From: a virus
Strand: one strand, 5' to 3'
IMG/VR virus record: IMGVR_UViG_3300049483_000209
Coordinates: 1-29,524 of that record
Length of the DNA: 29,524 nucleotides
A model generated the notes under the pieces. It did no database searches and was not told the origin of the DNA. It saw only the letters and a list, made by a program, of their open reading frames with translations. The position numbers were made by a program, and so were the translations under genes. Positions 2,316 through 29,500 of this stretch are shown here, one piece after another. How positions within the stretch are numbered: the stretch's first letter is position 1; every line of letters starts with the position of its first letter.

Positions 2316-3023
2316 TCAGTAAACCCTCACGTGACGTAAACCAATGGGGATGATTGAAGCGGCGCCACGACGGCGGCCGGCATCAAGGGTGATGGTCGGA
2401 TTGTCGGTACTGTAGCTCGTCCCGGTAACGGTGAGGCTGGTCGCCTGCGAACCGCTGCTGGGCTCTGGAGACTGATTGCCGGTAAGCGGCCAGTACTCGA
2501 TCAGATGATCGGAGCGCACGAGATTCGGGGCCTTGGTGGTGAGTTCCGCGATTTCAGAATCCGAGAGCACAATGTCCCAGACGCCGACATGTGCCACTAG
2601 CGTGCCCGATAACAGCGGGATGCCCGGCGTTGTGCTAAGGTTCCCCGATATACGTGTGGCGTCGAAAGTGCCTGGTGTAGCGGCGACGGCATTGGTTCCT
2701 TTATTCGCCCCATCACGGAAGCAGGCTTTGGTCGTGTCATCCGTCCAAGTCCCAGTGCACAGCGTCCACACCCCGGTAGACGGAGAACCCGATGCGGAGG
2801 CGCTTCTTGAATTTGAAGCATCCCTCAAAATAGACTGGATCACCGCCCCGGCCACCTGTAGGGTCAGTCGGTGATTGCTTGTACCCGCTTGACCGATGTT
2901 AAAGATATGACCCGAGCCTGTGTCACCAAACTTCACCCACGCCGATACCGTAACGGGGCGCGAGGCACGGACCGCGCTGGCGGCGTCGAGGTGATCGGTG
3001 TTCGCTGAAAATGATCTGCTCAT
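2316..3023 (-). CDS. LamG/concanavalin-like tail protein, 235 aa
   Basis: The protein is almost entirely one LamG-like (concanavalin A-like lectin/glucanase fold) domain. Seen directly: an N-terminal TVSAWVKF strand, GHIFNIG, and a C-terminal pair VAHVGVWDIVLSDSEI and LIEYWPL that is typical of LamG_3-type phage proteins. It is clearly paralogous to residues 1-210 of the 732-residue protein encoded at 19702-21900. It ends with a short Arg-rich tail (GRRRG...RHVRVY). The start has AGGTGA six to nine bases upstream. The domain family binds glycans or proteins; here it is probably displayed on the tail near the tailspike, which is inferred from position. Confidence 0.85.
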   Translation of the reverse strand: MSRSFSANTDHLDAASAVRASRPVTVSAWVKFGDTGSGHIFNIGQAGTSNHRLTLQVAGAVIQSILRDASNSRSASASGSPSTGVWTLCTGTWTDDTTKACFRDGANKGTNAVAATPGTFDATRISGNLSTTPGIPLLSGTLVAHVGVWDIVLSDSEIAELTTKAPNLVRSDHLIEYWPLTGNQSPEPSSGSQATSLTVTGTSYSTDNPTITLDAGRRRGAASIIPIGLRHVRVY

Positions 3024-14451: not shown

Positions 14452-14775
14452 TCATCCTACCGCGGGATCACGCAGCGGGTACAGAATCGCCGTCACCGGG
14501 GCGGGCAGGTATCCCATCTCCCAGTCCGTCATCTTCACGCCTGACGGGTCGCGCTTCCAAATCCCCACGAGCGCCAGCACAGCATTCACGATCACGGCGG
14601 GGACCTCTTCAGCCACACCATCAGACGCAACCTCATACTCCTCCTCGGTCAGATTCAGATACGTGAGCACCGCTTCCGAGGCGCCCATGATCGCTAACTC
14701 CAGATCATCGTCCTCATCCGCCCCGTCATATTTCAACCGGGCCTTCGCAACCGCAAGCGACACGAGCATGGTCAT
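14452..14775 (-). CDS. Head-tail connector, HK97 gp6-like
   Basis: A 107-residue, mostly helical acidic protein of the gp6/gp15 connector type. The start LVSLAVAKARLKYDGADEDDDLELAIMGASEAVLTYLNL matches the typical 'DDxLLxxLIxAAxxxVxxYL' pattern. PAVIVNAVLALVGIWKRDP follows, then a C-terminal PAPVTAILYPLRDPAVG. Family members form a ring under the portal. AAGGGAGAG lies just before the ATG. Start overlaps the stop of the collagen-like gene by four bases, indicating coupling. Confidence 0.88.
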   Translation of the reverse strand: MTMLVSLAVAKARLKYDGADEDDDLELAIMGASEAVLTYLNLTEEEYEVASDGVAEEVPAVIVNAVLALVGIWKRDPSGVKMTDWEMGYLPAPVTAILYPLRDPAVG

Positions 14776-15656
14776 GGGCGCTCTCCCTTGATCTTGCTAA
14801 CGCCGGGGGGACCTTGCGGGCCTCTCTCCCCGTCCTTGCCATCCCGCCCACGCTTCACAGCCAGCTTCCAACTGTCATCCGTCTCGGGGCGCGCCTTGGT
14901 GTCGCGCGTCGCAATCCAAATCGACCCACCCCAAGTCACAAGATCACCGCGAACGTACTGCTCATCAACCTTATGGACTCCACGCCACACAGGGAATGGG
15001 CATACAACGTTCTTTATCCATTGCGTCTCCCCCGCTGTCAACGATACAGTCAACGTCCGCCCATCCTCGCCCAATACCGCGTCAAATGTTGATAGGTCAA
15101 CGCCATCCCGCCCATCCTTCCCGTCCTTCCCGTCCTTGGCCTTGGGGGCGCGATCAATCGCATTCTGAAGCAGCGCCTGCGCCCGGCGCTCGAAGTCCAG
15201 CGCCCACTTGGCAAGCGCGGTGTCCATGAAGGCATGAACCTCCTCAATGGTGAACACTCGCCCATCCGCGCCATCCTTCCCCGGGGCGCCGTCTTTACCT
15301 TCCCGCCCGGGGGCGCCGTCCTTGCCGTTGAGCCCTGGGGCGCCGTCCTTGCCGTCCTTCCCCGGAGCGCCGGGGCGCCCCTCCGCGCCGTCTTTACCCG
15401 CGGGGCCGACTTCGCCCCGGGGACCGATCCCGCCCGGCGCTCCGTCCTTCCCGGGCGCGCCCGCATCCCCCTCCGCGCCATCCTTCCCCGGGGCGCCGTC
15501 CTTCCCATCAACCCCGTCCCGACCCGGGGCGCCGTCCTTCCCGGCGGGGATCGAGTCGATGCGGGTCGCGAGCGCCGCCAGCGCCGAATCGACGTACTCT
15601 TTGACGCCACGGACAATCGCACGAAGCAATGTGGCTTTCTCTTGAGGGTCTATCAT
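14772..15656 (-). CDS. Collagen-like fibre protein with putative carbohydrate-binding domain
   Basis: A 294-residue protein. Residues 1-35 are helical. Residues 39-132 are 31 uninterrupted Gly-X-Y triplets rich in GKD and GAP. A second helix (136-170) follows, then a short collagen stretch (174-186) and a beta-rich domain at about 190-268 with YVRGDLVTWGGSIWIATRDT...DDSWKLAV, which resembles type 5/12 chitin-binding modules. A last collagen segment (270-285) ends the protein. Triple-helical phage proteins form trimeric fibres. The location between portal and connector, with overlapping starts and stops, suggests a head or neck fibre rather than a tail-tip one; this is inferred. GAGGA precedes the ATG at seven bases. 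Confidence 0.88.
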   Translation of the reverse strand: MIDPQEKATLLRAIVRGVKEYVDSALAALATRIDSIPAGKDGAPGRDGVDGKDGAPGKDGAEGDAGAPGKDGAPGGIGPRGEVGPAGKDGAEGRPGAPGKDGKDGAPGLNGKDGAPGREGKDGAPGKDGADGRVFTIEEVHAFMDTALAKWALDFERRAQALLQNAIDRAPKAKDGKDGKDGRDGVDLSTFDAVLGEDGRTLTVSLTAGETQWIKNVVCPFPVWRGVHKVDEQYVRGDLVTWGGSIWIATRDTKARPETDDSWKLAVKRGRDGKDGERGPQGPPGVSKIKGERP

Positions 15657-19381: not shown

Positions 19382-19705
19382 TCACTTCGTAACCGGCAGT
19401 ATTGCCTTCAGTGTCAATGTTTTCCCTTCAGTGCTAGTGGCCGCATGCGCCTTGATCACATAGTCCCCCGCCGAGTCCACCACCCCGGTCGGCACCAGAA
19501 TAATTTTCTTGGTATCATCCAACGCCGTCCCCGCCACAATGAGTTCTGATTGATCGACGGGCGAGCCGAACTTCACATCCACCACTTCCGCCGTCGGCGT
19601 CCCCGCCAACGTCTCCCCCGTCTCAAGGTCCGGCGAAAAGTCAAAACTCACCGTCCGCTCCTCGCTCACATCACGCTCGGGGAATCGCTGGGTTGGCTCG
19701 GTCAT
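19382..19705 (-). CDS. Small Ig-like phage protein, Gp77-like
   Basis: A 107-residue acidic beta-rich protein. Pattern: RFPERDVSEERTVSFDFSPDLETGETL, AEVVDVKFGSP, a DDTKKIILVPTGVVDSAGDYVIKAHAATSTEGKTLTL strand series, consistent with a small Ig-like fold. Phage proteins of this kind (Gp77-like) occur near structural genes and are often next to Arg-rich neighbours. It may be a minor virion protein or a decoration. GAGGAGG lies eight bases before the ATG, the strongest SD in the window. It overlaps the stop of the repeat-rich fibre-like gene. Confidence 0.7.
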   Translation of the reverse strand: MTEPTQRFPERDVSEERTVSFDFSPDLETGETLAGTPTAEVVDVKFGSPVDQSELIVAGTALDDTKKIILVPTGVVDSAGDYVIKAHAATSTEGKTLTLKAILPVTK

Positions 19706-21900
19706 GTCCCCGTCCTCCTCACTCTGAAATTTCGCGCCGCAAGCGTCACCCGATACACACGCCTCGGGATAGTGGCCCGGAATCGGCGCGCCGGAGCCCG
19801 TACCACATAGTCGGGGTCAAATATGGCCCGAAATGCTTTTACCCTAAAGAGCATCGCCACCGCACCCGCCATGGCTGCTTCGCCATTGATCACGGGGAGC
19901 GGCGCCAGATACAGCGGCACCACACTCGCCATCGACCCTGCGCCCGTAAGCGAAATGGCGGCAGCCATGGCGCTGTTTATCGTCGCGTTAAATCGAGCAG
20001 CACCGTTAATCGAACAACCGGCCGCCAGGGCCATCGCAACATCGCACGTGATAAGCGTGAGCGGATTATCTTTCAGTTCACCTTCAGACGCGAACCCAAA
20101 CGCCACCGCGCCGGTCAATGCCCCCGCACCCCGGAGCGCGGGCGTTGAGGCGAGCGTTACAGGAATCACACCGATCAGCGGCGCCGTGCCGTTGATGGTC
20201 GGGGTCGCAGAGAGCACGAGCGGGACCGTGCTCGTAAACGATCCGGCGCCGTTTAGGGTCGGGGTCGCAGCGAGCGCAAGCGGGACCGCACTCGCCATCG
20301 CCCCCGCGCCGTTTAGGGTCGGGGCGCCTCCAAGCGTAAAGGCCGATGCGGCAGAAAGCGCGCCCGCACCGCGTAGGATCGGCGACATCCCAAGCACAAG
20401 CGGCACCGCGCCCGTGAGCGGCGCTGCACCGTTTATTGCTAGGGTCGCAGCAAGCGTCAAACCCGGGGAAACAGAGAGCGCACCCGCACCACTTAGGGTT
20501 TGGGATGCCTCCCAGAGCAATGAGATTTCGCAATTAAGCGCGCCGGACCCGACAGCGGTTAGATCACATATAAAATCCGTCAGCAGGCCAACCGTACTCG
20601 TCAGCGCGCCAGCGCCCGCAAGCGTAAGCGTGGATCCAATGACGGCGGGGATCGTGCTGCTGAGCGGGGCGGCGCCCTTGATGCTCGGCGTGACCCCAAT
20701 CACATCAGCAATCGTACTCGTCAGCGCTCCGGCGCCCGCGAGCGTAAGCGTGGAACCAAGAATGGTGGGGATCGTACTCGTCAGCGCGCCAGCGCCCGCA
20801 AGCGTAAGCGTGGAACCAAGAACAGTGGGAATCGTACTCGTCAGCGCTCCGGCGCCCGCGAGCGTAAGCGTGGAACCAAGAATGGTGGGGATCGTACTCG
20901 TCAGCGCGCCAGCGCCCGCAAGCGTAAGCGTGGAACCAAGAACAGTGGGAATCGTACTCGTCAGCGCTCCGGCGCCCGCGAGCGTAAGCGTGGAACCAAG
21001 AATGGTGGGGATCGTGCTGCTGAGCGGGGCAGCGCCATTGATGCTCGGCGTGACCCCAATCACATCAGCAATCGTACTCGTCAACGTCCCGACAGCGTTA
21101 ATGCCCGGCGTGACCCCAATCACATCAGCAATCGTACTCGTCAACGCCCCGGAGCCCGCGAGCGTAAGCGTAGACCCGGCGACTAGGGCGATGGTGGTAC
21201 TCATCGCGCCCGATAGGAAAATATCAAAGGCGCCGGAACCATTATCCCACAAGAGAATATCGAAATTTAACTGCGGATTATCCGTGCTGTAACTCGTGCC
21301 CGTGACCGTGAGGCTCGTGGCTTGCGTGCCGTTGCTCGGCTCCGGGGAGGCGTTGGCGGTGAGAGGCCAGTACTCAAGCAGATGCGAGGGCTGGACCTTG
21401 TCGGGTGTTTTCTTGGCCAACTCCGCAATCTCGGCATCTGAGAGCACGATGTCCCAAACCGCGACATGCGCCACCAGAGTACCAGACAAAAGGGGCAGGC
21501 CCGGGGTAGCAGCAAGATTGCCTGATATACGGGTAGCATCGAATGCGCTTGGGGTGCGCGCAGCAGAATTGGTTGCTTTATTCGCTCCAGCCAAAAAGAC
21601 CGCGCGATCCGTGTCATTCGTGAAAGTGCCAGTGTAGAGTTGCCACACCCCCATCAGCGGCGTCCCCGACGAAGTAGGACCCGAGGAGGTGCTGGCGTCC
21701 CTCATAATTGCTTGGAACGCCCCACCAGCAAAATTCAAGCTAATGCGATGGTTAGATGATCCCGCGGTGCCGATATTGAAAATATGTCCTGTGTCTGTGC
21801 TCCCCGCTTTTACCCACGCCGATATTGTGACCGGGCGCGTCGCCCGTACCGCAGTGGCGGCGTCCAGATGATCGGTATTGGCTGAGAATGACCTACTCAT
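19702..21900 (-). CDS. LamG-domain protein with long 20-residue repeat array (fibre-like)
   Basis: A 732-residue protein in three parts. Residues 1-210 form a LamG/concanavalin-like domain, a clear paralogue of the protein encoded at 2316-3023. Residues about 230-685 are about 22 repeats of 20 residues, consensus (S/T)LTLAGAGALTSTIPxxLG, with later copies more divergent (ATPTLNGAGSFTSTVPLVL). This gives a regular beta-rich stalk. The last 47 residues are very Arg-rich (13 Arg), with ARRFRATIP, RRVYRVTL and ARNFRVRRTG. A fibre or adhesin on the virion is likely from the LamG head plus stalk. The ATG overlaps the previous stop (TGATG). Host-binding is an inference. Confidence 0.8.
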   Translation of the reverse strand: MSRSFSANTDHLDAATAVRATRPVTISAWVKAGSTDTGHIFNIGTAGSSNHRISLNFAGGAFQAIMRDASTSSGPTSSGTPLMGVWQLYTGTFTNDTDRAVFLAGANKATNSAARTPSAFDATRISGNLAATPGLPLLSGTLVAHVAVWDIVLSDAEIAELAKKTPDKVQPSHLLEYWPLTANASPEPSNGTQATSLTVTGTSYSTDNPQLNFDILLWDNGSGAFDIFLSGAMSTTIALVAGSTLTLAGSGALTSTIADVIGVTPGINAVGTLTSTIADVIGVTPSINGAAPLSSTIPTILGSTLTLAGAGALTSTIPTVLGSTLTLAGAGALTSTIPTILGSTLTLAGAGALTSTIPTVLGSTLTLAGAGALTSTIPTILGSTLTLAGAGALTSTIADVIGVTPSIKGAAPLSSTIPAVIGSTLTLAGAGALTSTVGLLTDFICDLTAVGSGALNCEISLLWEASQTLSGAGALSVSPGLTLAATLAINGAAPLTGAVPLVLGMSPILRGAGALSAASAFTLGGAPTLNGAGAMASAVPLALAATPTLNGAGSFTSTVPLVLSATPTINGTAPLIGVIPVTLASTPALRGAGALTGAVAFGFASEGELKDNPLTLITCDVAMALAAGCSINGAARFNATINSAMAAAISLTGAGSMASVVPLYLAPLPVINGEAAMAGAVAMLFRVKAFRAIFDPDYVVRAPARRFRATIPRRVYRVTLAARNFRVRRTGT
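20590..21180 (-). repeat. 60-bp repeats with 120-bp higher-order period
   Basis: The DNA behind the first 10 or so protein repeats is a near-perfect 60-bp tandem array. Two alternating 60-bp versions make a 120-bp unit. From about 20710 to 21015 the sequence is identical at a 120-base offset (for example 20761-20880 equals 20881-21000 exactly). Flanking units at 20650-20710 and 21011-21070 carry another shared variant with GGAGCCGCCC-type changes. This points to recent tandem duplication. Confidence 0.9.
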
Positions 21901-24330: not shown

Positions 24331-24768
24331 TCAGTCGAGCGTGACCACCAGGGCGCCAATCGCAAAGGAGGGCGTGATGTTCTGGGAGATGACGAGCGCC
24401 GATGTCCCAATCATGTCCAGGCTCCCACCCGCCGAGAGCGCATAACCGAGCCCTGTGTGGCTGATCGTGGAGCCGGTCACCCCACACTGTGGGAACGTAA
24501 CGGCTCCAGCGTTTGCCGACTGCGTGGTGCCGGAAATCGTCCACCCCGCTCCACGCGCCACGGCCTGCCGGGCGTAGTTGGTGTAGGCCGATTCGCTCGC
24601 CGTCTGTAGCGTTGCGCTGTCGCCCGGGTCCGCCGTGTGCAGCGACACGTGGATACTGCCCGCGGTGCCTGAGGGCTGAAGGCCCGAGGCGTCGCCGACG
24701 TTGGCGGCGGCGGTGTTCTTGAAATAAAGCGTGAGAAGTTTGTTCTCAAATGCGTCAGTTGCGCTCAT
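24331..24768 (-). CDS. Gp80-like tail/virion accessory protein
   Basis: A 145-residue protein with the pattern of the Caudoviricetes Gp80-type family, often labelled tail fibre protein. It has a helical DAFENKLLTLYFKNTAAANVG start, IHVSLHTADPGDSA, TNYARQAVARGAGWT, a VTFPQCG turn, and a closing strand series ITPSFAIGALVVTLD. Members are small beta-rich virion proteins. TAGGAG precedes the ATG at a spacing of eight. The gene is followed after ten bases by the next start. Exact role is not established. Confidence 0.75.
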   Translation of the reverse strand: MSATDAFENKLLTLYFKNTAAANVGDASGLQPSGTAGSIHVSLHTADPGDSATLQTASESAYTNYARQAVARGAGWTISGTTQSANAGAVTFPQCGVTGSTISHTGLGYALSAGGSLDMIGTSALVISQNITPSFAIGALVVTLD

Positions 24769-24771
24769 TGA

Positions 24772-25548
24772 TCATGCTCCTACTGTGATTGATTCCACTA
24801 CTACCCGGCGCCGCGCTTTCGTCGGGCCGCTCAAACTAAAATGTTCCGCTATCCAAGGCGACGCCGCCCGGGCCACAGGGTCCCAGGGATCGGGCTTGCC
24901 GTGGAACACAACGAGCCGCGCCCCCTCAGGGAGTGCGCCCGCGCGGCGTTGCTTACAGTCTTGGCGCCAGGCGTAGATGCCATCCGCTTCCGTCCACGTC
25001 GCCTCCTTCCGGCGCCCGAGGCAGTACTCAATCCACGCTTGGTCCGAGCCCGTAAGGCCCGCGGCGTGCGTCAGCTTCGGGGAATCGATGGGGTCGAAGT
25101 CCTCCCACACATGCGCACGGGCGCCCGTGCGCATCATGAACATCGACCCGTTGAGCGCGCCATGTGCGTGCTTCGAGGCGTACATGATGAAGTCCTCATC
25201 CCGATTCCACAGCGGGCGCATATCCCCCGTGATCACCACGTCCAGGTCAATCGACACGAACCGCTCGCCCGCAATCTCCGCAAACTCCGGGGAGAAGGCC
25301 CGCAGCCGCCGATAGCAACTGGGCCCCGGCCCGGGCCACGTCGGGTTGAGCAGGTCGCCGTGCAGCGCCCACAGCGGCACCGTCATCACCCGTTCATCGA
25401 TGCCCTCGGGATCGTCCGTGATGCAGACGACGCGGTGCGGTTCCGGGTAATGGCGCTCGACCATAGCACGCATAATGTTCACGTGCTCGCTCCGGAACCA
25501 GCTGCGGTAGCCGGGCTTGGCCCACTTCCAGGTGACGATGCTGAGCAT
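24772..25548 (-). CDS. Glycosyltransferase, GT8-like
   Basis: A 258-residue protein of the GT-A fold. It starts MLSIVTWKWA with VCITDDPEG (42-50), has SCYRRLRAF (77-85), then the metal-binding DLD motif in FVSIDLDVVITGDM (97-110). It continues ALNGSMFMMRTG (131-142), GSDQAW (167-172) and VVFHGKPDPWD (213-223), the closing His-Gly-Lys-Pro element typical of GT8-like enzymes. All expected motifs are present, so it should be active. It is expected to move a sugar from a nucleotide-sugar to an unknown acceptor. GGGGA lies eight bases before the ATG. Neighbours suggest a sugar-modification cassette. Confidence 0.82.
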   Translation of the reverse strand: MLSIVTWKWAKPGYRSWFRSEHVNIMRAMVERHYPEPHRVVCITDDPEGIDERVMTVPLWALHGDLLNPTWPGPGPSCYRRLRAFSPEFAEIAGERFVSIDLDVVITGDMRPLWNRDEDFIMYASKHAHGALNGSMFMMRTGARAHVWEDFDPIDSPKLTHAAGLTGSDQAWIEYCLGRRKEATWTEADGIYAWRQDCKQRRAGALPEGARLVVFHGKPDPWDPVARAASPWIAEHFSLSGPTKARRRVVVESITVGA

Positions 25549-25857
25549 TTATGCGGTCCCCGCTTTCGAGACACCGCTGCCATTCGTCGCCCGGGGCGGG
25601 TAGAGCAGGGTATGGGCTTGCTGTTCGACCTCATGGGTCACGTCGCAGTGCGAGGGTTCCCAGAAGTACACACTATTCACAACGCGGCTCGCACGGCGCG
25701 CAAAATTCTGCTTCCACCCACGCTCATTCCACCGCCACCGACCTATGAGCCCGCTCACCGTCTCCCGAGGGCGCGCCCAAGGGAAGAACAACAACGCGCA
25801 CACGAGCATGTTGACGGCGACGTACAACGTAAATACCCGGGAGCCGAACCACTTCAT
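25549..25857 (-). CDS. Small membrane-anchored protein
   Basis: A 102-residue protein with one N-terminal transmembrane segment (about 8-26, LYVAVNMLVCALLFFPW). After it comes a cytoplasmic or periplasmic part rich in Arg and Trp (RPRETVSGLIGRWRWNERGWKQNFARRASRVVNSVYFWEP). No family recognised. AAGGAG lies seven bases before the ATG. It lies between the ATP-grasp-like and glycosyltransferase genes with overlapping ends, so it probably works with them, perhaps holding the pathway at the membrane. That role is an inference. Confidence 0.75.
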   Translation of the reverse strand: MKWFGSRVFTLYVAVNMLVCALLFFPWARPRETVSGLIGRWRWNERGWKQNFARRASRVVNSVYFWEPSHCDVTHEVEQQAHTLLYPPRATNGSGVSKAGTA

Positions 25858-26786
25858 GCTGCCGCTCCTTGCGGTGAAGGTTTATAGGCCCACGCTCCGT
25901 TTTCAATTTCGCTGAACATACAATCCCACATGTCGATCCAAGTGTAGGGCGAGCGGAACAGCGTCGCCGCATTACAATCGCCCGGCGACGGCCACGGCCA
26001 CGCGAGCGAGGACTCCAGCAATCTCCACTCCATAATCGCCGCGTCCCAAAGTATATCGAGCGCGCACCAGCGGGTGCCTACCTCTGCGAAAAACGCATCC
26101 GCATACTCCAGCAGCGACTCGACCTGAGGGGTCATCACCTTCACCGGCACGGTGTTGCCGGTCTGCGCCACGGGGCGATCCGGGTAATTGTGCCGCATGA
26201 ACACCGCGCGCGCATTCCCAATCGCGTTTACCCGCCACGTGATCTCGTGGGGGATGAACTCCGAGAGCAACACATAGTCGTGCTGCACGGACTTCGCATT
26301 CACGCCGCCCCCGCCGCCCGCGCAATGATGGACGATGACCCCGGGGCCAAAGACCTCGTGAACGTGGCGCGCGGCTTCCGTAGCATCCTTGAGAATGCGG
26401 ACATTGACCGATGATGCCCCCACGTCCGCCTTCGACACCAGCGGGTACGGGGCGGCGGCGAGAAATTCCAGCGCCGCATCAAGCGCGGTAATCCTCACAG
26501 TAAGCGGCATCCACGCGCCCCAGCGCCGGAATTGTTCGCTCTTGCTCTCATACGTCTCGACCATCGCGGCGTCCTGAACCATGAGCAACCGCTCCGCCAT
26601 GAGGGAGAAGTCGCGCTGGTTACGGCGCAACGCCACCGGGTCGGCGTGCGGGCGGATAAAGCCAACGCCCTCGCCCTCGACTTCCGCACCGCTGAAGATG
26701 CGCTTGCCTCGATACCCGAAGCGGAAAGCCGCCGCGAGCGCCGCGGCGTACCAGACGTTGCGCTCGTCAAGCACCCAGAAGTTCAC
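25854..26786 (-). CDS. ATP-grasp-like enzyme
   Basis: A 310-residue protein. I choose the GTG at 26786 (NFWVLDERNVW) because GGAG lies six bases upstream; the farther TTG at 26798 has none. Pattern of the ATP-grasp fold: PYPLVSKADVGASSVNVRIL with the first Lys, YVLLSEFIPHEITWRVNAIG for the central strand and catalytic Glu, and WCALDILWD...MEWRLLESSLAWPW for the end, where the usual E-x-N is E-S-S. ATP-grasp enzymes make acyl-phosphate intermediates and join a carboxylate to an amine or thiol. The substrate is unknown. The start overlaps the previous gene by 20 bases. Confidence 0.7.
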   Translation of the reverse strand: MNFWVLDERNVWYAAALAAAFRFGYRGKRIFSGAEVEGEGVGFIRPHADPVALRRNQRDFSLMAERLLMVQDAAMVETYESKSEQFRRWGAWMPLTVRITALDAALEFLAAAPYPLVSKADVGASSVNVRILKDATEAARHVHEVFGPGVIVHHCAGGGGGVNAKSVQHDYVLLSEFIPHEITWRVNAIGNARAVFMRHNYPDRPVAQTGNTVPVKVMTPQVESLLEYADAFFAEVGTRWCALDILWDAAIMEWRLLESSLAWPWPSPGDCNAATLFRSPYTWIDMWDCMFSEIENGAWAYKPSPQGAAA

Positions 26787-27297
26787 GAACGTCTCCAAGC
26801 GGAAAGCGGAGCAGTGCGGAGCCCGGGGTGCAATTTATGACGTTGACTGCCTGATCCGCTTCCCACTTGTCGAACTGATGGATGTGGATATTGAATCTCC
26901 CCGGCTTCGTGTTCTGGAGCGGCGCCGGATGCTCGCCAAAAAAATGCGCGCCCCCAGTCGCGTGCATATCGAACCCAAGCAACAAGAGCCGCGACGCCCC
27001 AAGTTTTACGGCGACCCGCATCGCTTGGAGCCCGGAGTTGAGCCCAATCGTGAAGCGGCCCTCGTACTTGATACGCTCGCACCCGGGGTATCCCATCCCG
27101 CAAAACTTCCGTCCCTTGAACTTCAACGCCTCGGGATGCACGCGCCACCACTTCGAGTCGTTCGACACGAGCGCATCGGCCCAGGGCGCGAGCCGGTAGG
27201 CGTCCGACACCGCGATCACACGGCACTTCCCTCGCACGTACTCGGCGACCTCCGAATTCATCGAGGGCCCCGTAGCAAGAATGGCGAAAGTACTCAT
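26767..27297 (-). CDS. MptE/DUF115-like protein
   Basis: A 176-residue protein with an N-terminal AILATGPSM (nucleotide-binding Gly-rich loop), VIAVSDAYRLAPWADALVSND, and FTIGLNSGLQAMRVAVKLGASRLLLLGFDM followed by HFFGEHP. This combination is typical of the 6-hydroxymethylpterin pyrophosphokinase MptE-like/DUF115 group, whose members in bacteria and phages often sit next to sugar-modifying genes (for example flagellin glycosylation). The ATG has only a distant SD (GAGG at 13 bases). Next to ATP-grasp and glycosyltransferase genes, a nucleotide- or sugar-related role is likely. Confidence 0.72.
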   Translation of the reverse strand: MSTFAILATGPSMNSEVAEYVRGKCRVIAVSDAYRLAPWADALVSNDSKWWRVHPEALKFKGRKFCGMGYPGCERIKYEGRFTIGLNSGLQAMRVAVKLGASRLLLLGFDMHATGGAHFFGEHPAPLQNTKPGRFNIHIHQFDKWEADQAVNVINCTPGSALLRFPLGDVRELLGA

Positions 27298-27509
27298 GCA
27301 CCGGATTCAACCTCTTCGCTGACCGCTTTGGCGGAAAGAGTAAATTGCTCGACAACTGTGTCAATCGAATTTTCGGCATACATCGTCGCAGTAACCACCA
27401 CCGCCTCGCCAACCTTAAAATCAATCACGAGCCGTCTCACAAAGCGTCCCTCCAAGCCCAGAGCCTTCAACACGGCAAGAGCAAACTTATTGTCTGTTGC
27501 AATTATCAT
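27294..27509 (-). CDS. Small unknown protein, 71 aa
   Basis: A 71-residue protein starting at the ATG at 27509, which overlaps the terminase stop as TGATG; a GTG one codon earlier (27512) is also possible. It has an alpha/beta pattern (IIATDNKFALAVLKALGLEGRFVRRLVIDFKVGEAVVVTATMYAE...VVEQFTLS). I recognise no family. The stop overlaps the start of the next gene by four bases, so it is tightly coupled to both neighbours. It may be a small packaging or accessory protein, but this is unknown. Confidence 0.6.
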   Translation of the reverse strand: MIIATDNKFALAVLKALGLEGRFVRRLVIDFKVGEAVVVTATMYAENSIDTVVEQFTLSAKAVSEEVESGA

Positions 27510-29500
27510 CACATGAATAGAACTTCGTACGCTTTCTTTTGCGGTTTTGGGTTCATCGCCATAAGCGCCACGGCGTTGAAGGTCGCCATGAGCGGGTCGA
27601 TCTTCGAATCCCCAGAACTCTGCTTCGTAATGATGATTGCGTTGCCTCGAGGCTCGACCACCGCGTTACCGACACACCACGCCATCATGCGCGAGTTGCC
27701 GTGATGAAGCGCTCCCTCGGCCAGTTTTCGCTCCGTGGTCTTGATGGCGCCCACTAGTTTCCAGCCTTGAGAAATTCCGACAACGCGTTCGAATTCGATC
27801 CCCTTGTCCACGATCGCGTCGACGATACCACCGATTCCCGCCTGATCAACGCCTACGCGATCCAGCAGTCCGGCGGTTTCAATCCGTTCGACGTAGTCGG
27901 CCACCTGAGTCACGTCCTCTCCTGGATTGGCGACAATCGTCAAATCGCCGTCTCGTTCGAAGTCGCCGAACGCTTGGGCCGCGGCCTTGCGCCGCTCCAG
28001 TACGATGGGATGAATCCACGCGTGCGCCCAGTGAAGCCACGCGCCTGACTCGACGTCGCGACCGACCACGGCCATGCCGAGCATATCTTGCATGCCACCA
28101 CCGTCGATCCCGACAGTAACGACTTCGCTGTGCGTCAAAAGGTGGTCCAAGGTCATGGCTTTTGATCCAGGTTGTCGAGTCCAGAAATCAGCCCCGATCC
28201 AGTTATCGGAGCGCAGCGCGATGCCGATCTCAACGTTGAGGTGTTGGCTGGCCCACGCTCTCAGCTCCGCGTCCCCGGTAGCACTTGCCGTCGCAAAGTC
28301 CTCGACTAGGCGCGGAATGCTGATTGAGCGACCTGCATTGGGAGTGATCATGTCCCAATTGCGCTGATTAGCCCAAGAATCTCGACTCCGCTGCATGGCC
28401 TCTGGGAATTCGTACATGATAGGCAGCATGACGCCTGCCTGTTTACCGTCACGAATATCACGCGCCTTTTGCAGTTCGATTTTGAACACCCCGACGGGCG
28501 GGTCCTCGGACTGGGTCGTAATAAATGCCATAAATGCTTCGGGGAACGGGAGCATGCCGCCGCGCAGCTGGCGGATCGCCGACGGCGCCTTCGACATGCG
28601 CGACACCACATGCAGTTCATCGATTAGCACAGCCAGGGGTTTCTGACCCGTCAGCACCGAGGGATCGAAGGTCATGATCTGCAGTTCGGTGCCGTTGAGC
28701 CGGTGCACGATCGTCTTGACGTGTTCGCGAACGTGGAAGAGTTTCGATAGCACGGGATCGAGGTGGATCGCCCCGGCGGCGGCGTCGAAGGCCAGTTGTG
28801 CCACGTCGTGCACGGGCGCCGTCATGATCATGGTCCCGTTAGGGCGACGATTCAGCAGCATCGCCGTTAGCATCAGTAGCGCGCCGTTCGTCGTCTTCGA
28901 GTTCTTCTTCGGCACCAATAGGAACAGTTCGCGGATCATCCGTTGCTGGGTTCGCTTGTCGAGCGAGCCGAACAGGACGCGCACGATGTCGTTGAACCAC
29001 TCGCCCCCGGCCTCTCCCATGGTGGGGGTACCTGGCACGTCGGCCAGGCGCAGTTCGCTGAACACCCTTACGGCCCGATTCCCCATGTCGAGGTCGATCG
29101 GCAAATTCGGGATGAGCGAGCGCCGCGCCTTTAGGCGCCGCTCCCAGTCCGGCGTCGACAGGTCCCAGGGTTGCGGCAAAGGGAGGCCTGGTTTGAGTGG
29201 AAGAAGCGGAGGAAAATCGAGCAATTCCTCCCAGATCGTGCCCTTCGTCGCCGTTTTGGCGTTAAGGATAACGTGTTCCTTCTTTCCGACCCGTATTGGA
29301 GGTGTGACGATGCGCGTGCCATCGGGCAACTGCTGTATCCGCGGCGAAGTATTAGGGCTTCGACGATTGCTGAGACGCTTGTACGCCTTACGTCGCGCCG
29401 CGTTCATTCTAGCTCGCTGCTCAGCGGTGTGCACTCGAGGGCGCAGTGAGGGTTTCTTTGCGCTACGTGCGACGCGCTTCATTTTACGCTTCGTTTTCAA
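27509..29500 (-). CDS. terL: Terminase large subunit (start uncertain, possibly outside the window)
   Basis: The DNA-packaging motor. Walker A VPKKNSKTT (196-204), Walker B AVLIDELHVV (290-299) with catalytic Glu, then the nuclease domain with VGIDGGGMQ (463-471), GVDQAGIGG (550-558) and SKIDPLMATFNAVALM (632-647). The pattern fits the Terminase_1 family. The protein is long because of a basic N-terminus (KRKMKRVARSAKK...RRKAYKRLSNRR). Start choice is open: TTG at 29500, ATG at 29482 and ATG at 29407 lack a good SD, and the frame stays open to the right edge, so the gene may begin outside the window. The small subunit would be expected to the right and is not seen here. Confidence 0.92.
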   Translation of the reverse strand: MKTKRKMKRVARSAKKPSLRPRVHTAEQRARMNAARRKAYKRLSNRRSPNTSPRIQQLPDGTRIVTPPIRVGKKEHVILNAKTATKGTIWEELLDFPPLLPLKPGLPLPQPWDLSTPDWERRLKARRSLIPNLPIDLDMGNRAVRVFSELRLADVPGTPTMGEAGGEWFNDIVRVLFGSLDKRTQQRMIRELFLLVPKKNSKTTNGALLMLTAMLLNRRPNGTMIMTAPVHDVAQLAFDAAAGAIHLDPVLSKLFHVREHVKTIVHRLNGTELQIMTFDPSVLTGQKPLAVLIDELHVVSRMSKAPSAIRQLRGGMLPFPEAFMAFITTQSEDPPVGVFKIELQKARDIRDGKQAGVMLPIMYEFPEAMQRSRDSWANQRNWDMITPNAGRSISIPRLVEDFATASATGDAELRAWASQHLNVEIGIALRSDNWIGADFWTRQPGSKAMTLDHLLTHSEVVTVGIDGGGMQDMLGMAVVGRDVESGAWLHWAHAWIHPIVLERRKAAAQAFGDFERDGDLTIVANPGEDVTQVADYVERIETAGLLDRVGVDQAGIGGIVDAIVDKGIEFERVVGISQGWKLVGAIKTTERKLAEGALHHGNSRMMAWCVGNAVVEPRGNAIIITKQSSGDSKIDPLMATFNAVALMAMNPKPQKKAYEVLFM

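Follow-up and report, generated by a model that had tools for sequence, protein, structure and literature searches.

The window analysed here is a virus record of 29,524 bases derived from an HK97-like siphophage, the genes of which run on the minus strand. Matches to PHROG families identify TerL, the protease, the major head protein, the portal, the connectors, the tail terminator, the tube, the chaperone, the tape measure, the distal tail protein and a J-like fibre. TerL (27509-29500) is followed, as far as a gp80-like fibre gene (24331-24768), by the five open reading frames (ORFs) of the original prediction, all on the minus strand:

27294-27512, minus strand: first ORF, 72 aa from GTG or 71 aa from ATG, no family match
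26767..27297, minus strand: MptE/DUF115-like protein, 176 aa (phrog_4603; predicted fold nearest to Maf and GT42)
25854..26798, minus strand: predicted ATP-grasp ligase of the RimK/LysX/ArgX type, up to 314 aa (model, Foldseek, invariant residues)
25549..25857, minus strand: one-pass membrane protein, 102 aa (phrog_3342; hydrophobic segment)
24772..25548, minus strand: putative GT8-like (glycogenin-type, GT-A) glycosyltransferase, 258 aa (phrog_1962; glycogenin profile)

Four-base overlaps are found at three junctions (TerL with the 72-aa ORF, the 72-aa ORF with the MptE-like gene, and the ATP-grasp gene with the membrane protein gene), and the membrane protein and glycosyltransferase genes abut. 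The called start of the ATP-grasp gene is the TTG at 26798; the alternative GTG at 26786 would give a 20-nt overlap with the MptE-like gene, the same as in several relatives. The five genes had been described as interrupting the packaging-to-head order. The interruption is real, but it is longer than these genes, as the gp80-like gene, the genes of a 187-aa and a 648-aa protein, a LamG gene and the gene of a 107-aa protein also precede the protease. Defence-system models gave no match. Two proteins of the window (19702-21900 and 2316-3023) have a phrog_8510 stretch in common, and the larger of them contains a LamG (lectin-like) domain.

The glycosyltransferase matches phrog_1962 with an E of 3e-15. 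Its profile matches glycogenin-2 (4ueg; E 1.9e-4) with the DxD, DQ and HxxGxxKPW regions all aligned, whereas its score against Pfam GT8 (PF01501) is 13.0 bits, under the gathering cut-off of 24.3; the protein is GT8-like, as judged from its profile. The DLD motif (D101, D103) is intact, as had been noted, aligns with the DAD of glycogenin and is invariant in all 34 glycosyltransferase sequences. The closing FHGKPDPW motif, also noted before, aligns with HFLGSMKPW of glycogenin but is shortened to HGKPDPW; its F215 and G217 are invariant, and two divergent paralogues have another residue in place of the His. A 24-base perfect palindrome, ATGCGCACGGGCGCCCGTGCGCAT, lies within this gene at 25111-25134; it is the window's only one of at least 14 bases and is missing from related loci. 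A clear transmembrane segment is present only in the 102-aa protein, which matches phrog_3342 (1e-7), has its hydrophobic segment at residues 8-26 and carries the motif PRETxSGLxGR...HC.

The AF2 model of the ATP-grasp protein (pLDDT 86.6, pTM 0.86) has a predicted RimK/LysX/ArgX fold. A Foldseek search with the model finds ArgX (E 6e-13), and whole-chain comparison gives Z scores of 23.0 for RimK, 22.6 for ArgX and 22.1 for LysX, the next group (GSH synthetase, Ddl) reaching at most 18.8. Four residues of the ATP/Mg site, K123, R189, D248 and E262, are invariant in 29/29 sequences. An hhalign alignment with E. coli RimK, of low probability, places the ATP-site Lys and the Mg-ligand Asp and Glu of that enzyme opposite K123, D248 and E262. 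The phage ligase differs from RimK, LysX and ArgX, to which it is about 15% identical, in having its own signature, ETSLAWPWPSPG, and in replacing the Asn of the E-x-N motif of ATP-grasp enzymes by S264 (E-x-S), again in 29/29. Catalysis is likely despite this replacement.

The MptE-like protein matches phrog_4603 (E 4e-33), and its match to Pfam PF01973 (1.9e-5, 25.0 bits) is under the cut-off of 34.6. Its AF2 model (pLDDT 87) is weak in Foldseek alone (best E 2.4e-3). The closest structure is that of the flagellin glycosyltransferase Maf (5mu5), which superposes on 160 residues with a Z of 13.7 and an rmsd of 2.7. The GT42 sialyltransferase CstII comes next (Z 12.1), and MptE (the HPPK 8sd5, Z 9.7) and thiamin pyrophosphokinase rank under both, at Z 9.6-9.7 between them. 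The GPSL, SG and GxD stretches in its N-terminal part align with CstII, and the alignment stops short of the catalytic His region. The predicted likeness to Maf and GT42 has its limits, as the phage protein is just 176 aa long, is 16-18% identical to them and covers only the central part of Maf. The MptE/DUF115-like, ATP-grasp, one-pass membrane and GT8-like labels of the original prediction are all upheld.

Four of the five genes form a recurrent cassette. A query with the glycosyltransferase led to 12 viral loci, at least seven of which carry an ATP-grasp gene; there the MptE-like gene usually precedes the ATP-grasp gene and the membrane protein gene often comes after it. Single-sequence scans with the ATP-grasp or the MptE-like protein alone gave no match, and an alignment was required: that of eight ATP-grasp proteins yielded 31 loci on uncultured viral contigs. 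Among the 27 contigs with at least 2 kb of downstream sequence, a GT8-like gene lies no more than 1.7 kb downstream of the ATP-grasp gene in all 27, and the one-pass membrane protein gene is likewise downstream of the ATP-grasp gene in 26. An MptE-like gene is found within 4 kb in 23/31 contigs, 20 by profile and three more divergent (L038, L039, L047); of the contigs lacking it, long flanks to either side are available only in L034 and L042. These counts are slightly inflated and not all independent, because the contigs L025 and L046, and likewise L029 and L037, are nearly identical. The original prediction had named a failure of these genes to co-occur elsewhere as refuting it; they do co-occur, in about 30 contigs.

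The slot between the membrane protein and the glycosyltransferase sometimes holds an O-methyltransferase or a GDPD-type phosphodiesterase gene. GDPD-type genes occur near or inside the cassette at L010:5093-6001, L012:5150-6001, L043:276-1160 and L046:7858-8523, and the one in L046 has a further match to a PHROG of tail fibres. An apparent fusion of the ATP-grasp and membrane proteins in L029, L032 and L037 was rejected, as it arises from an ORF that continues in an alternate frame through the ATP-grasp gene.

The first ORF, which had been counted as a 71-aa member of the set, was left out of the cassette because it has no relative in the loci carrying the set (no homologue at E 1 in any of them) and because its GC content is 49% against 60% for the window; it matches no family either and is probably a passenger.

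The flanks of the set vary, yet its neighbours are nearly always genes of the head, the connector or the terminase. In L007 and L012 it sits between head closure (Hc1) and neck genes; in L036 and L044 it has a collagen-like gene on one side and head closure (Hc1) on the other; in L043 it is upstream of TerL; it adjoins capsid protein E in L041 and the phrog_9953 head protein in L038. The exception is L034, where it stands beside a PhoH gene. The ATP-grasp protein of the window is about 60% identical both to that of the L019 phages, whose portals are barely alignable, and to that of the L046 phages, whose portals are 60% identical. Such similar ligases in spite of very different portals point to exchange between backbones. 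In a Mantel-type comparison, the distances of cassette genes correlate with each other at r 0.50-0.75 and with those of backbone genes at r 0.09-0.85. As the former values are not clearly higher, this test leaves transfer as a unit unproven. For nearly all pairs of cassette proteins compared, dN/dS falls at 0.03-0.30, and they are therefore under purifying selection.

The genes, their co-occurrence, their folds, the conserved catalytic-type residues and the selection on the proteins are what the analysis shows, and from here on acceptor, donor, order of steps and purpose are inferred. With a probability of roughly 0.45, the four genes are a late-operon cassette for a small glycan, perhaps with an amino-acid cap, that would decorate a protein produced in the same late period, most likely a surface-exposed virion protein such as a fibre, a capsid decoration protein or a tail protein. 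The sugar donors would be supplied by the host. Either the small Maf/GT42-like or the GT8-like enzyme would take a first sugar from a nucleotide sugar of the host and attach it to the acceptor, and the other of the two would then extend it. The RimK/LysX-like ligase would activate a carboxylate with ATP and join it to an amine; an amino acid might thus cap a sugar acid or the terminal carboxylate of the acceptor. The one-pass membrane protein might keep the enzymes or the acceptor at the inner membrane. The optional O-methyltransferase and GDPD genes would be expected of a decoration that varies because hosts or other binders select on it. The earlier reading of the locus as a sugar-modification cassette fits the GT8-like and Maf/GT42-like proteins, whereas the presence of a RimK-like ligase hints at chemistry other than glycosylation alone.

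Maf, glycogenin, RimK and LysX/ArgX are all protein-modifying. A virion-protein target is the first choice because these proteins modify proteins and because the set is found in late structural operons. Ser and Thr, in which the original prediction had noted many virion proteins to be rich, amount to 20-25% of several fibre and tail proteins against 15.3% overall. A collagen-like protein (14772-15656) was considered as the acceptor and rejected, since its Gly-X-Y repeats are rich in Lys and Asp and contain hardly any Ser or Thr. This protein has 32 unbroken Gly-X-Y triplets, its C-terminal region matches portal-associated families, and homologues occur in many cassette phages. A more specific proposal, a phage-only pathway in which the RimK/LysX-like ligase and the two glycosyltransferases build a coat of amino-acid-capped (peptidyl) glycans on virion proteins, seems rather improbable; we know of no virus with such a combined coat.

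The cassette might instead act late on an envelope glycan of the host (LPS core, capsule or lipid-linked precursor), so that the progeny avoid debris or other phages are barred. Virion-protein and host-surface targets, both of which had been put forward, cannot be separated from sequence alone, and a membrane protein suits a soluble virion protein no better than an acceptor bound to the membrane or linked to lipid. It is because hardly any copy of the set lacks the membrane protein that an envelope target, possible at odds well below even, is placed a close second. Bacterial GT8 enzymes and GT42 sialyltransferases are established as often acting on LPS. The glycosyltransferase clusters of large phages have been proposed to serve an outer polysaccharide (PMC7824862). 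An integrase is present in 3/13 records, and some members may therefore be temperate. The tight overlap with TerL and the position in the structural operon imply late rather than lysogenic expression, however, and no promoter-like site was found above chance. Neither a GtrA-type flippase, which sets the cassette apart from Gtr serotype-conversion cassettes, nor a CMP-sugar synthetase was found in the 13 records, most of which are possibly fragments. The target might also be a host protein or a metabolite to which the ligase adds an amino acid, the product of the glycosyltransferases being unrelated. RimK-type ligases are known to modify ribosomal protein S6, and the fold of the MptE-like protein is common also to MptE and thiamin pyrophosphokinase. 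Host proteins have also been put forward as targets of phage R2K ATP-grasp proteins (PMC7824862). Since the ligase is in fixed linkage with a GT8-like gene, and Maf and GT42 outrank the pyrophosphokinases, such a function appears improbable.

It would be very improbable that the genes are unrelated accessory genes (morons) gathered by chance, with no joint pathway. Relatives of the MptE-like protein include orf7 of phage D3 and PmgP of P1, and MptE-like genes stand without a ligase in D3 and PAJU2 (in the head/neck region) and in P1; gene order and inserts differ between phages as well. The presence of ligase and glycosyltransferase together in 27/27 contigs, across different layouts of the head genes, already disfavours a chance cluster. 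The pmgP gene is nonessential in the laboratory (PMC10695390), which fits a decoration function and proves nothing. The least probable target is phage DNA, which the original prediction had also named. Examples of phage glycosyltransferases acting on DNA have been described (Pyle 2024, as cited in PMC12619734). Unlike phage DNA hypermodification systems, the 13 records, several of them 47-60 kb long and most possibly fragments, contain no base modifier of the thymidylate-synthase type, and DNA-modification genes do not usually sit among late structural genes; this part of the prediction is left without support.

Phage glycosyltransferases are usually read as serving against host DNA defences or serotype conversion. 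Glycosylation of virions or surfaces by phage-encoded enzymes is itself already known, and the combination of the four genes appears undescribed: no description of it was found in the open-access literature searched, and the set was found in no isolate phage or sequenced bacterial species. Queries with the ATP-grasp protein gave no relative among 50,697 phage records, the membrane protein had no match in phage records, and the contigs of GTDB species genomes contained no relative of the ATP-grasp or glycosyltransferase proteins within the scope of the peptide patterns used. The closest functional precedent for a virion target may be that of mycobacteriophages, whose capsid and tail tube carry glycans added by phage-encoded glycosyltransferases (Freeman 2023, as cited in PMC12619734). 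Hosts and genes differ there, and neither a RimK-like ligase nor a Maf/GT42-like or membrane protein is described in the account cited, whereas the present system is known from its genes. If the favoured decoration of the virion, or that of the host envelope, is true, then decorating the particle or the surface of the dying cell, by glycosyltransferases together with an ATP-grasp enzyme of the protein-ligase type, would seem to be a widespread strategy among uncultured phages. The four small proteins of the cassette are candidates for direct expression and assay.

Relatives of the glycosyltransferase are found in four isolate or named records, one of which is Tetraselmis viridis virus S20 (NC_020840.1, L015). 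This virus has a GT8-like relative (47%) together with two MptE-like genes, GT-D, GT2, FkbM and other methyltransferases, and the gene set sits between the capsid-region and head-closure genes. The S20 set is larger than the cassette, but no ATP-grasp ligase or membrane protein was found in it. Although the record gives a green alga as its source, the virus is a tailed phage.
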